DNA from: Mariprofundus ferrinatatus
GTDB lineage: Bacteria > Pseudomonadota > Zetaproteobacteria > Mariprofundales > Mariprofundaceae
Direction: 5' to 3'
Assembly: GCF_002795825.1 (NCBI RefSeq)
Contig: NZ_CP018800.1
Coordinates: 744,001-808,000, forward strand
DNA length: 64,000 bases
The notes under the pieces were generated by a model that worked only from the letters and a program-made list of their open reading frames with translations, made no database searches and had not been told where the DNA came from. Position numbers and translations under genes: made by a program. Shown one piece after another: positions 12,740-17,381 of this stretch (position 1 is its first letter; each line of letters opens with the position of its first letter).

Positions 12740-14133
12740 TGGAGCATCATGAACTGATTGTCATCGGAGGCGGTCCCGCAGGGCTTGCTGCTGCAACCGC
12801 TGCTGCAGAAACGGGTGTTCAGTGCCTGCTCCTTGATGAACAGGGCACGCCCGGCGGGCAGATCTACCGCGCGGTGGAGACGATTCCTGAAGAGCGTGCC
12901 AGGCTGCTCGGTCCCGATTATATCTATGGGCGCAAACTGGTGGATCGCTTTAATGCCAGCAGTGCAACCTATCTTCCCGGCACCTCGCTCTGGAGTCTCA
13001 ACAGCCGGAGGGAGATAGGTATCCTGCGTGACGGCCAGGCCTCGTTGATGCGAGCTGATCGCATCATCATCGCAAGCGGTGCGATGGAGCGGCCGGTTCC
13101 GTTCCCGGGCTGGACACTGCCGGGTGTGATGACGGCAGGGGCGGGACAGATACTGCTTAAATCTTCCGGTGTGGTACCGAAAGACGGGGTGGTACTGGCC
13201 GGTGTCGGGCCTCTGCTGCTACTGCTTGGCTGGCAGTATCTTCATGCCGGTGTACCCATTCGCGGGATTCTGGATCTGTCGCCGTATGGCAATATCTGGC
13301 GCTCTCTTCCCCATCTGCCGGGCGCACTGATGGCGCATCACTACATCCTGAAAGGGCTGCGTTACCAGATGCAGCTGAAGATGGCCGGGGTGAAGTTCTA
13401 TGGTGGGGTGAGTGAATTTCATGCGGTTGGCGGCGATGTGCTGGAGGCGGTTGAGTTTACCCATCGCAGAGGCCGCAAACGCATTGAGACCGAACTGCTG
13501 CTAAGCCACTTCGGTGTGATTCCGGACAGTCATCTCAGCCGCTGTGCCGGATGCGAACACTACTGGGATCACAGCCAGCTCTGCTGGCGACCTGTGACCG
13601 ACGAGTGGGATAACAGTTCGATCGAGGGCATTGCTATTGTCGGTGACGGATCCGGTATCGGTGGTGCGGTTGCTGCGCGACATGCCGGTCGCATTGCCGG
13701 TTTTGAGGCTGCGCGCGCCCTCGGTTATATCGACACAAAGCAGAGGAATGAGGCGGCCGGTAAAGATCAGCGCTGGATGCACGATGACCTGCGTGTGCGC
13801 CCCTTTCTGGAGGCGCGTTTCCACCCTCCGGCCGAGCTGTTGAGTGGCCCCCCTGATGAAACCCTGGTCTGCCGCTGTGAAGAGGTGAGGGCAGGTGAGG
13901 TGCGCAGGGCCATGCATGCAGGCCACAGGGATGCCAATCAGGTGAAGTTTCTGACCCGCTGCGGCATGGGGCCATGTCAGGGGCGCCAGTGTGACAATGC
14001 CGTCAGCCAGCTTGTCGCCCGTGAACTGGGTGATGAGAAGATGATCTCCGGCGGTTATCGCATCCGTCCGCCGATTCGCCCGCTGACGATCGAGCAGCTT
14101 GCCGGACTGGATGTGGGGGATGCATCTCAATGA
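12739..14133 (+). CDS. FAD/NAD(P)-dependent oxidoreductase, HcnB/OoxA-like subunit
   Basis: 464 residues from ATG 12739; the frame is open further upstream, but that part is the previous gene in another frame. It opens with a dinucleotide fold (LIVIGGGPAGLAAATAA), has the mid-protein motifs ASGAMERPVPFPGWTLPGV and GVVLAGVGPLLLL, and a second FAD element GIAIVGDGSGIGGA. The C-terminus carries a BFD-like [2Fe-2S] motif: LVCRCEEV followed by CGMGPCQGRQC. This is the alpha subunit layout of HcnB, opine oxidase and D-hydroxyproline dehydrogenase complexes. It overlaps the next gene by 4 bp (ATGA). Confidence 0.88.
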   Translation: MEHHELIVIGGGPAGLAAATAAAETGVQCLLLDEQGTPGGQIYRAVETIPEERARLLGPDYIYGRKLVDRFNASSATYLPGTSLWSLNSRREIGILRDGQASLMRADRIIIASGAMERPVPFPGWTLPGVMTAGAGQILLKSSGVVPKDGVVLAGVGPLLLLLGWQYLHAGVPIRGILDLSPYGNIWRSLPHLPGALMAHHYILKGLRYQMQLKMAGVKFYGGVSEFHAVGGDVLEAVEFTHRRGRKRIETELLLSHFGVIPDSHLSRCAGCEHYWDHSQLCWRPVTDEWDNSSIEGIAIVGDGSGIGGAVAARHAGRIAGFEAARALGYIDTKQRNEAAGKDQRWMHDDLRVRPFLEARFHPPAELLSGPPDETLVCRCEEVRAGEVRRAMHAGHRDANQVKFLTRCGMGPCQGRQCDNAVSQLVARELGDEKMISGGYRIRPPIRPLTIEQLAGLDVGDASQ

Positions 14134-15242
14134 AAGCGGATGTCATCATTATCGGCGGCGGCCTGCAGGGGCTATCGACCGCACTGCATCTGGGGCGTCG
14201 TGGCGTCAAATCGATCGTGCTCGAAAAAGAGAGTCCCGGTCGCCACGCCTCCGGTGTGAATGCCGGCGGCCTGCGCCAGCTCAATCGCCACATGGCCGAG
14301 ATTCCGCTGACGGTTGAGGCGGCCAGGATGTGGAAAAACATCCGCGAGCTTGTCGATGGCGACTGCGATGTGGTGCTCAGAGGGCAGGTCAGGGTTGCCG
14401 AGTCTGATGTGCAGCTTAAGAAGCTGCAGGCGCGCGTGGATATGCTCAGGGCGCAGGGCTACGAGCATGAGCAGATCATCGATCAAGAGACGCTCTACAG
14501 GCTTGTGCCGCGGCTGGTGGAGGGGTGTGTCGGCGCGCTCTACAATCCCGATGACGGCTCGGCCCGTCCTTTCCATGCTGCCACCGCCTTTCGTCATAAG
14601 GCGATCGCACTCGGAGCAGAGATCCGCAGCGGCGTCGAGGTGCTCGGCATCGAAGAGGGGGGCGATGGCTGGAGGGTCGAAACCAGTCAGGGATCGTTCA
14701 CTGCTGCAAATGTGGCGAACTGTGCCGGTGCATGGGCCAACCGTTTTGCATCCATGCTTGGCGAGCCCGTGCCGTTAAAACCGCAGGCACCGACGTTGAT
14801 GGTGACAGAGCGGCTGCCCCATTTCCTCGATCTGACGGTAGGGGCAGAGGGTTATCAGCTCTCCTTCAAGCAGATGCAGAACGGTACGGTGATCATCGGC
14901 GGTGCCCATCTGGCGAAGCTCGATTTTGAGCAGGAGAAGAGTGTCATTGATTTCGCCACGCTGAAAACCAGCGCCCAGACCGTGACCCGCTTCTTCCCCC
15001 ATATGGCGCAGGTTCGCATTGTGCGTACATGGGCGGGCATCGAAGGGTTTATGGCCGACGGTATTCCGGTGATCGGCAAAAGTGCCAAGGCGGCAGGTAT
15101 CTTTCACGCCTTCGGTTTCTCTGCACACGGATTCCAGCTCTCGCCTGTCGTGGGGCGCATCATGAGCGAGCTGATCCTCGACGGCAAAACCGATCTGCCG
15201 ATCGAGCCGTTCGATATCCGGCGCTTTCAGAAAACTGAATAA
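14130..15242 (+). CDS. FAD-dependent amino-acid/amine dehydrogenase, HcnC/OoxB-like (DAO family)
   Basis: 370 residues of the D-amino-acid oxidase fold. Seen are the N-terminal FAD site VIIIGGGLQGLSTALHLGRR, the family-typical GRHASGVNAGGLRQLNRH, and the C-terminal GFSAHGFQLSPVVGRIM. It is the substrate-oxidising beta subunit in HcnABC-like and opine-oxidase-like complexes, turning a C-N bond to an imine. It is joined to the alpha subunit by an ATGA overlap. Substrate candidates include D-amino acids, sarcosine-like N-alkyl amino acids, hydroxyproline, opines and glycine; nothing in the sequence decides among them. Confidence 0.88.
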   Translation: MKADVIIIGGGLQGLSTALHLGRRGVKSIVLEKESPGRHASGVNAGGLRQLNRHMAEIPLTVEAARMWKNIRELVDGDCDVVLRGQVRVAESDVQLKKLQARVDMLRAQGYEHEQIIDQETLYRLVPRLVEGCVGALYNPDDGSARPFHAATAFRHKAIALGAEIRSGVEVLGIEEGGDGWRVETSQGSFTAANVANCAGAWANRFASMLGEPVPLKPQAPTLMVTERLPHFLDLTVGAEGYQLSFKQMQNGTVIIGGAHLAKLDFEQEKSVIDFATLKTSAQTVTRFFPHMAQVRIVRTWAGIEGFMADGIPVIGKSAKAAGIFHAFGFSAHGFQLSPVVGRIMSELILDGKTDLPIEPFDIRRFQKTE

Positions 15243-15272
15243 AATTGATGGCTTTGAAAAAGACATCATCGA

Positions 15273-15388
15273 ACCCATGGATGGGTGAGCAAATCAGATA
15301 CTTCAAGAGATGTATCTGATTTGTAAGGAAAGTGAAAACCGCGCTTTTCGCTTTCCGTAGAGTAAAAAGATCAGGATGGACTTTTTAC
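15273..15388. repeat. Four tandem inverted repeats before ridA
   Basis: Four dyads stand one after another with 4-5 bp between them. They are ACCCAT/ATGGGT (15273-15286), AAATCAGATAC/GTATCTGATTT (15291-15322, perfect 11 bp), GGAAAGTGAAAA/TTTTCGCTTTCC (15327-15356, one mismatch) and GTAAAAAG/CTTTTTAC (15362-15388, perfect 8 bp). They fill the gap between the dehydrogenase operon and the ridA ribosome site. In RNA they would form a row of hairpins; none has a clean terminator T-run. Confidence 0.75.
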
Positions 15389-15415
15389 GGATCAATAAAG
15401 CTAAGGTGAAGAACA

Positions 15416-15766
15416 ATGATTGAACGCTTGGAAACAAAACAGCGCATGAGCAGGGTCGTTAAACACAACGGCACGATCTATCTCTGCGGTCAGGTCTGCA
15501 AGGATGCCGAGCAGGGGATCAGGGAGCAGACCCAGACGATGCTCGATAAGGTCGATGAGCTGCTGATAAAGGCGGGCAGCGACAGGAGGCATATCCTCTC
15601 TGCAACGATCTATATCAAGGATATGAAGTACTTCGCCGAGATGAACGAGGTGTGGGACAACTGGGTGCCGGAGGGAGATGCCCCAGCCCGCGCCTGTGTT
15701 ACCGCCAACATGGCACGCGAAGCGCTGCTGGTGGAAATCTCAGTCATCGCTGCTGAAATTGTTTGA
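15416..15766 (+). CDS. RidA-family enamine/imine deaminase
   Basis: 116 residues; ATG 15416 follows AAGGTGAAG. RidA/YjgF trimers hydrolyse reactive enamines and imines. The family signature is present: [14 protein letters not shown] near the N-terminus and [19 protein letters not shown] at the C-terminus, holding the conserved Arg and Glu. It follows the amine-dehydrogenase genes on the same strand after a structured 173-bp gap, so it probably deaminates the imine they make. It converges with the antiporter gene, with 10 bp between stops. Confidence 0.9.
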
Positions 15767-15776
15767 CGGGCTCTGG

Positions 15777-17381
15777 CTATTTACCCATCAAAGCCTCCAG
15801 CTCTTTAGCAAAGCCCAGGCCTGCCTCCGTGTAGATGTTGAAAGTAAGGTCGACACCCACAGCTTTCAGAGCATCTTCCTCATCCCTGAACTTTGTCGTG
15901 GCAGCGATGCGACCCTGGTATCCCATCTCTTTAAGTCGCATTGCAGCACTCATATTGGCTTTTTGTGACGGCAGGGTCAGTAATACCCATTCAAGTTCGT
16001 CGAGCAGCTCAGGAGCACGTGTCCAGAAATCGGGGTTGGTCGCATCGCCGCTGACAACATTTTTCCCCTCTGCAGCGTGTTTTATCGCCTTATCCTGCTC
16101 AATCTCCACGCCGACCAGAGTGGCAGCGTAGTCCGGCTCTAATACGTTGTAGGCAGCCGTACCCATGCGCCCCATGCCGAACACCACCACCTTAATGCCA
16201 CGTAATGCCAGGTTCTCTTCACCGGGAAGGCGCTCTGAGCGTTCGAACCGTTTAAGCCAGGGGCACCATCTCTGGTAGAGGCTGTCCCGGACATTCACCA
16301 GCGGAGCTGAAACGATAAATGAGATCGACATGACAACAGCAAAGACAGCCAGCCACTCTTTTGGCAACCATCCTGCAGAGGCAGCTATAGCACCGACAAT
16401 CAGGCCGAACTCGCTGTAGTTCGCAAGGTTGAATGAAGCGCGCAATGCGGTGCCGGATCTGAGGCGGAACAGGTTAAAGAGTCCGAAATAGATCGCAGTT
16501 TTCAGTGGCAGGATCAGGATGAACAGCAATGCAATGAGCACTTCGCTCCAGCCCGGAAGTGCAGTCATGCCTACGCTGAGGAAGAAGCCCACCAGGAACA
16601 GCTCCTTGAGACCAAGCAGGGCTTTCGAAAGCTCATTGGCCTTGGCGTGGTTGGCAAGCAGCATTCCGAATACCAGTGCCCCGACATCCGCCTTGATACC
16701 GACCAGTTCAAAGATATCCGCGCCGACCAGTGCCATAGCAATACCAAACAGAATAAGCAGTTCACCATGGCCGACTCTGTCGAGGATTCTGAAGATCAGG
16801 AAGCGCAGGGGAATCAGCCCAATCAATGCCAGCGCCCATATCGTAGGCAACTTGCCCATTGAGGCGGCAATAAACACGACGGCTGCAATGTCCTGCACCA
16901 CCAACAGGCCAATAGCGATTTGCCCGTGCCTGGCATTCGTTGCACCCGTTTCATCAAGAATCTTCACCGCAAACACGGTGCTGGAGAAAGAGACGGCGAA
17001 GCCGATAAGCAGGGCCGTAGCCATATCAACACCGGAAATAAGCGGCAGGGCGGTATAGGAGAGCAGTACGATGATGGTGGCGACCAGAATCGTGATCAGG
17101 CCCATGTGTAGTGTAGCCACCCCCCATATCTCGGGTCTTATTAATGACTTTATCTTGAGCTTCAGGCCGATAGAGAAGAGAAGCAGTGTGATGCCGAGGT
17201 CGGCCATGACTTTAAGGAATTCACCACCTTCGGCTCCCAGGGCATTGAGCAGAAATCCTGCTGCCAGAAAGCCAACCATCGGTGGCAGCCCTATCCTGCT
17301 GATCACCAGGCCGCACAGGAAAGCGGTCGCTATCCAGAGCGGGTCACTGTAATGAATGGAGAGGAGGATTTGCGATTCCAT
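15777..17381 (-). CDS. CPA2-family K+(Na+)/H+ antiporter with TrkA-N domain (KefB/YbaL-like)
   Basis: 534 residues. About twelve membrane helices span residues 10-390 (TLLLFSIGLKLKI, AVSFSSTVFAVKIL, GLLVVQDIAAVVF are family-typical). A cytoplasmic TrkA-N/RCK domain follows, with the NAD site VVVFGMGRMGTAAYNVL and TLVGVEIEQDK. These inner-membrane exchangers export potassium or sodium for protons, gated by nucleotide or thiol ligands on the TrkA-N domain. There is no KefF/G partner nearby. It stands alone between convergent ridA and a tautomerase gene. Confidence 0.9.
   Translation of the reverse strand: MESQILLSIHYSDPLWIATAFLCGLVISRIGLPPMVGFLAAGFLLNALGAEGGEFLKVMADLGITLLLFSIGLKLKIKSLIRPEIWGVATLHMGLITILVATIIVLLSYTALPLISGVDMATALLIGFAVSFSSTVFAVKILDETGATNARHGQIAIGLLVVQDIAAVVFIAASMGKLPTIWALALIGLIPLRFLIFRILDRVGHGELLILFGIAMALVGADIFELVGIKADVGALVFGMLLANHAKANELSKALLGLKELFLVGFFLSVGMTALPGWSEVLIALLFILILPLKTAIYFGLFNLFRLRSGTALRASFNLANYSEFGLIVGAIAASAGWLPKEWLAVFAVVMSISFIVSAPLVNVRDSLYQRWCPWLKRFERSERLPGEENLALRGIKVVVFGMGRMGTAAYNVLEPDYAATLVGVEIEQDKAIKHAAEGKNVVSGDATNPDFWTRAPELLDELEWVLLTLPSQKANMSAAMRLKEMGYQGRIAATTKFRDEEDALKAVGVDLTFNIYTEAGLGFAKELEALMGK

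Follow-up and report, generated by a model that had tools for sequence, protein, structure and literature searches.

What is the row of four inverted repeats that lies between an oxidoreductase gene and ridA in Mariprofundus ferrinatatus, and is it tied to these genes? The window, that is, the whole 64,000-nucleotide stretch of DNA analyzed here (contig NZ_CP018800.1, positions 744,001 to 808,000), has an intergenic gap of 173 nt between the two genes, in which the hairpins end 27 nt before ridA and on the same strand. The features are listed in window coordinates.

14130..15242, + strand: gene for a FAD-dependent oxidoreductase of the DAO family, upstream neighbor
15247..15268, + strand: H1, decayed 5' terminal repeat/hairpin, GATGGCTTTGAAAAAGACATCA, placed by alignment with copies in other genomes
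15273-15286, + strand: H2 dyad, ACCCATGGATGGGT, from dyad search and fold
15277-15282, + strand: H2 hexaloop ATGGAT with a C-G closing pair, matching the CsrA/RsmE ANGGAN loop (rule from an excerpt of PMC7652899)
15290..15323, + strand: H3, CAAATCA...TGATTTG, with 15-nt arms at 15290-15304 and 15309-15323 (93%); inner pairs covary
15327..15356, + strand: H4, core GGAAAGTGAAAA/TTTTCGCTTTCC, with 18-nt arms at 15324-15341 and 15342-15359 (83%)
15362..15388, + strand: H5, with 8-bp arms at 15362-15369 and 15381-15388
15372-15378, + strand: H5 loop CAGGATG, identical to the CsrB repeat CAGGA(U/A/C)G as quoted in an excerpt of PMC7652899
15381..15394, + strand: decayed 3' terminal inverted repeat; intact copies end in ...TTTTTACGACTTCATC
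15416..15766, + strand: ridA, a Rid-family deaminase gene, downstream neighbor

The insertion and its empty site

The four dyads lie where the first-pass annotation had placed them, at 15273-15388, and their arms were re-derived. Its judgment that chance would not produce such a row holds up: the gap (15243-15415) has a folding energy of -54 kcal/mol and a z score of -5.0, equaled by none of 200 shuffles, and the opposite strand also folds (z -5.65, 0/200 shuffles). It had likewise seen no standard terminator, and the region 15100-15900 indeed contains no site with a GC stem and T run; the sigma-70 promoter consensus has no site there either. An Rfam scan of the window found no family at threshold, and a permissive scan of 14900-15800 returned chance-level matches alone, with no riboswitch among them. 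The 116-bp dyad block is real, but comparison with relatives shows that it is not the whole element, which measures about 148-150 bp and occupies approximately 15247-15394 of the window.

The window feature is an insertion in the oxidoreductase-ridA interval. Three genomes of the same genus (G042, G027, and G039) share, at 87-90% identity, all or the retrieved part of the OCD-Fer2-FAD/NAD-DAO-RidA cluster, and in these only 34 bp separate the last DAO codon from RidA, versus 176 bp in the window; a fourth locus, L062 of Mariprofundus sp. OFTM252, probably belongs to the genome of G039. Separately, two Akkermansiaceae MAG contigs (L004 and L015) are among the closest ridA relatives beyond Mariprofundus, at 90% and 88% identity, reflecting either transfer or binning error.

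A dispersed family with terminal repeats

In BLAST comparisons, several genomes of the family contain dispersed places that align with about 145 nt of the stretch 15246-15389 at 74-82% identity. Copies taken with 60-bp flanks begin with GATGACTTCGTAAGAAGTCATCA, which in intact copies constitutes H1 with a GNRA-type loop, and end in ...GGACTTTTTACGACTTCATC; past these ends the flanks are unrelated. The terminal inverted repeats of these type A copies are about 20 bp long and are decayed in the window copy. Exact 6-bp direct repeats, mostly ANNNNT, are seen at 14 of 30 aligned rows. Target duplications matching at five or more of six positions are found in 36 of 67 copies; 1000 re-pairings gave 3.2 such copies on average and 11 at most. 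The count of 36 is too low because type A ends were called automatically and the visible duplications of L110, L111, L112, L113, and L124 were missed. The would-be duplication of the window copy, AAAATT/AATAAA, matches at three of six positions and is no longer readable; this loss, together with the decay of the first hairpin, indicates an old copy. The family displays the terminal inverted repeats, the target-site duplication, and the empty site in relatives by which a MITE is recognized.

No transposase was seen between such ends in 20 regions of genome G057 that have lone terminal repeats, and these lone repeats are mostly truncated copies. Three truncated copies in that genome (L275, L282, and L284), with H1 and H2 only, lie immediately 5' of start codons, and at L285:342-1613 an H1 remnant is found near the 3' end of a reading frame of 398 aa that is TnpB-like by eye. 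No match was obtained for a type A copy in plasmids or phages, for a G171 copy in plasmids, or, in viral contigs, for a 22-base pattern searched without mismatches. At L003:1501-1517 (G000:C1:1389098), 17 bases identical to part of the H5 region adjoin another hairpin, GATCAGGATGGA...TCCATCCTGATTT.

Copies in other genera show the same hairpin order with different stems and ends, the latter being of type B (GGAAGCGCTGATTTATT), of type C (TTAAGGATGCTCTGAAAAA), or without visible terminal repeats. The covariance model R1, built from 24 copies, has nine matches below E 1e-4 in the M. ferrinatatus genome, mostly between closely spaced genes. Across the class it matches in 43 of 78 genomes and 13 of 18 genera, with up to 45 candidates scored per genome and the counts for G034 and G062 to be taken as "at least" values. 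Among 200 genomes of the phylum, own class included, 38 match at 1e-4, of which seven lie outside the class (G078, G085, G094, G135, G169, G171, and G219). The copies of these seven follow the common four-hairpin plan, and both their stems and their terminal repeats are new. Rfam scans gave a meaningful match to the element at none of 16 class loci and at one of 10 further loci, and as far as these scans went, Rfam 15 does not contain the family. A search of open-licence literature on Mariprofundus, Zetaproteobacteria, CsrA/RsmA, and RsmW in connection with transposable or repeat elements yielded no report of such an element.

The neighbors of the other copies are unrelated: bolA/grxD, glyQ/glyS, groES, the pheS side, and ruvC/ruvA (in other genera, the names glyQ, glyS, bolA, and grxD were read by eye from the sequence). 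The copy between bolA and grxD (L101) lacks visible terminal repeats, as do the glyQ-side/glyS copies of three genera (L107, L131, and L141), which are similar in sequence and have the same orientation; the latter represent an old insertion that has been retained and may have been domesticated. Orientation relative to neighboring genes is unbiased (18 co-oriented, 19 anti-oriented, 17 convergent, and 6 divergent; n = 60), which is hard to square with read-through RNA being important to the host at every site. This suggests that, in general, the host can do without the element at a given site and that selection targets either the element as such or its source copies.

Loops of H2 and H5 and co-occurrence with csrA

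Of 41 diverse copies, 30 have the motif A(N)GGA in H2, 33 have it in H5, and 26 have it in both, as opposed to none in the H3 loop and two in the H4 loop, although some H5 counts may include a GGA slightly outside the loop and the copies were partly gathered with a model containing these loops. The motif is missing from one or both of H2 and H5 in 15 of the 41. An earlier classification of 146 copies agrees (H2 60/77, H5 107/139, H1 10/143, H3 7/140, H4 6/140); it recognized H2 in 77 of the 146, and the 41-copy count is preferred. Over the 146 copies, 245 hairpin loops hold GGA and 14 hold TCC. Both sets were clustered with one row per 84% similarity, giving 51 clusters for the hairpin classification and 47 for the diverse set, 41 of which were aligned; this broad 41-row alignment folded poorly and served for the loops alone.

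Variation in these loops falls at the two positions flanking GGA (the preceding N and the following base), where CsrA-family proteins tolerate different bases. As quoted in excerpts of PMC7652899, RsmE recognizes ANGGAN hexaloops, CsrB repeats read CAGGA(U/A/C)G, and SELEX yielded RUACARGGAUGU; in the window RNA, the H2 loop reads C[AUGGAU]G and the H5 loop CAGGAUG. The same excerpts describe the CsrA SELEX hairpins as mostly having four or fewer pairs, and the H2 and H5 stems of the element are often longer than that. Repeats without GGA are described for Beggiatoaceae in an excerpt of PMC4679880. On the strength of the A(N)GGA loops in H2 and H5, we propose that the RNA binds CsrA/RsmA dimers.

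The distribution of csrA is consistent with this proposal. Matches to PF02599 (csrA) are found in 63 of the 78 class genomes, and the element occurs in 41 of these 63 versus 2 of the 15 without csrA (Fisher p 3.6e-4), or, for genomes at least 90% complete, in 26 of 33 versus none of 6 (p 5e-4), these p-values being overstated because losses cluster by genus and the genomes are phylogenetically non-independent. The two exceptions are MAGs (74% and 69% complete, with 26 and 36 matches) whose genus has two other members, both with csrA; in genus g14, the element is found solely in the member with csrA. M. ferrinatatus itself has three csrA genes, one of them for a 60-aa protein, and the two products nearest to classical CsrA carry L4 and R44, residues named in an excerpt of PMC4950607. 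In the same genome, a reading frame that is FliW-like by eye lies between two csrA-like genes at G000:C1:2124369-2125233 (L293), with the third csrA elsewhere.

A probable structured RNA, its rivals, and known systems

The first-pass annotation had taken covarying stems as the mark of an RNA element, and the stems do covary, though across dispersed copies. In alignment A3, 23 of 31 pairs changed on both sides, with a covariation score of 0.406 against 0.141 for shuffled controls (0/500 as good) and at most 0.111 with partners slid; in A2, made of plain-BLAST copies, 21 of 50 pairs did so, with a score of 0.177 against 0.097 (shuffled) and at most 0.053 (slid). The slid control favors these structures, as they were derived from the same alignments. 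In H4, 9 of 12 pairs show changes on both sides.

A second line of evidence comes from stem mismatches in the 146 copies, counted with a hairpin finder that scores Watson-Crick pairs alone and treats every mismatch as equal. The count had first been cleared of antisense matches of the same copies, of weak secondary matches (one of them in L101), and of loci that duplicated a place already included (e.g., L247, L222, and L233). On one strand, G.T/T.G mismatches number 197 (106 distinct contexts) versus 47 (44) for A.C/C.A (p 4e-7). The ratio is 39:10 distinct contexts in BLAST-found copies alone (p 4e-5) and drops to 75:41 in contexts seen once (p 0.002), which means that the signal is partly inherited; by orientation, the raw ratios are 28:5 in co-oriented and 36:6 in anti-oriented copies. 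A function in double-stranded DNA would predict equal numbers of both kinds and is therefore disfavored, and with it the earlier idea of a chain of protein sites. The strand-specific excess points to RNA-level selection; a mutational bias affecting a single strand could mimic it.

Taken as a whole, we assign a probability of about 0.64 to the reading that the gap holds an old copy of a MITE-like, non-autonomous transposable element specifying an RNA that would bind CsrA/RsmA. An alternative that we regard as unlikely keeps all function in the DNA: single-stranded or cruciform hairpins would be recognized by the transposase, the palindromes kept by template-switch correction, and the GGA loops would serve as the places where the transposase makes contact. 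Such an element would agree with the clear terminal repeats and target duplications, with the lack of orientation bias relative to transcription, and with a core carried by several different terminal repeats; it fits poorly with the excess of G.T over A.C on one strand, BLAST-found copies included, with loop differences among the hairpins that befit an RNA-binding protein, and with the csrA co-occurrence.

Similarly improbable in our estimate is a REP/BIME-like mRNA element that just protects or shapes polycistronic mRNA as an RNase or Rho barrier, the GGA loops being incidental or meant for another protein. Strong hairpins, a position inside operons and at gene ends with divergent promoter regions rare (6/60), and the 22 of 63 csrA-containing genomes with no element match are what such a barrier would lead one to expect. 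However, it would not account for the retention of A(N)GGA in the loops of H2 and H5, and not of H3 and H4, while the stems change, or for the csrA correlation, and known REP units are far smaller. A series of intrinsic terminators, or of operators for proteins, has in its favor the T run at the end of H5 and is made very improbable by the strand-specific wobble and by the lack of any terminator or promoter consensus in 15100-15900. Weakest of all, a cis-regulatory leader or riboswitch of ridA sensing an imine or amine, as first suggested, retains from that suggestion a structured RNA with covarying stems just 5' of ridA and on its strand, and loses the tie to ridA, since the same operon lacks the element in three relatives, copies stand beside unrelated genes of no one conserved class and in both orientations, and no Rfam riboswitch matches.

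Under the preferred reading of a transposable element with a CsrA/RsmA-binding RNA, a trans-acting transposase would have inserted the element between the oxidoreductase gene and ridA, with a 6-bp duplication as in the closest family. As no promoter-like site is seen, it would be transcribed by read-through within the operon mRNA; the RNA is predicted, with support from the covariation, to fold into the four consecutive hairpins H2-H5, and the loops and the co-occurrence suggest that CsrA/RsmA dimers bind H2 and H5. The effect might be titration of CsrA, control by CsrA of how stable the surrounding mRNA is or how well it is translated, or both. A wider proposition, possible but doubtful, is that of a transposable CsrA/RsmA sponge family, with a core swapped among unrelated terminal repeats, dozens of copies per genome, survival dependent on csrA, and RsmW-like RNAs seeded by domestication. 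Small RNAs that titrate CsrA/RsmA govern large regulons; if the reading is right, a mobile element with the CsrA loop signature would be a source of such RNAs, and dozens of mRNAs per cell would bear CsrA sites placed by transposition.

Several known systems share features with this element. Like REP, REPIN, and BIME sequences, it is an intergenic palindromic repeat in many copies, but it is a much longer ordered unit with terminal repeats and duplications of its own. Bacterial MITEs such as Correia/NEMIS, ERIC, and RUP are short and intergenic, with terminal inverted repeats, target duplication, and transcribable hairpins, all of which the element shares; it differs from them in its 6-bp duplication, its five-hairpin plan, a core common to unrelated terminal repeats, and its A(N)GGA loops. 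With CsrB/CsrC and RsmX/Y/Z it has in common loops of the form CAGGA(U/A/C)G or ANGGAN, which there sequester CsrA/RsmA (excerpts of PMC7652899); whereas those RNAs have dedicated genes, the element is dispersed, mobile, and multicopy, with no visible promoter of its own.

A close parallel is RsmW, an sRNA of Pseudomonas (Rfam RF02809, clan CL00106), whose model aligns over its full length to copy L198 at 35.9 bits; the best scores of element copies (45.6, 42.7, and 35.9 bits) lie below the Rfam cut-off of 52 bits. Over 398 genomes of the phylum, the RsmW model matches in six: three of family f16 (presumably Pseudomonas), two above the cut-off and one below, and three R1 carriers (G171, G094, and G085), with the top match at an R1 copy in G171 and G094. 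None of 41 genomes of the own family has a match above the cut-off, and one of the three weak matches there is coding-like by eye. In the reverse direction, R1 found no match at E<=10 in five RsmW-match loci (three from f16, one from G085, and one from G094). The element is multicopy and scores below the cut-off, unlike RsmW, with its single match per genome in the two above-cut-off genomes, yet both consist of a row of four similarly sized hairpins with GGA loops in the first and last. According to an excerpt of PMC4950607, the RsmW of P. aeruginosa is released by processing of the PA4570 3' UTR, lacks its own promoter, and binds RsmA at 11.5 nM. Thus, although R1 and RsmW are not reciprocal matches, the element may work like RsmW in outline, and RsmW, being promoterless and processed from the transcript of an upstream gene, offers a precedent for an element lodged between co-transcribed genes.
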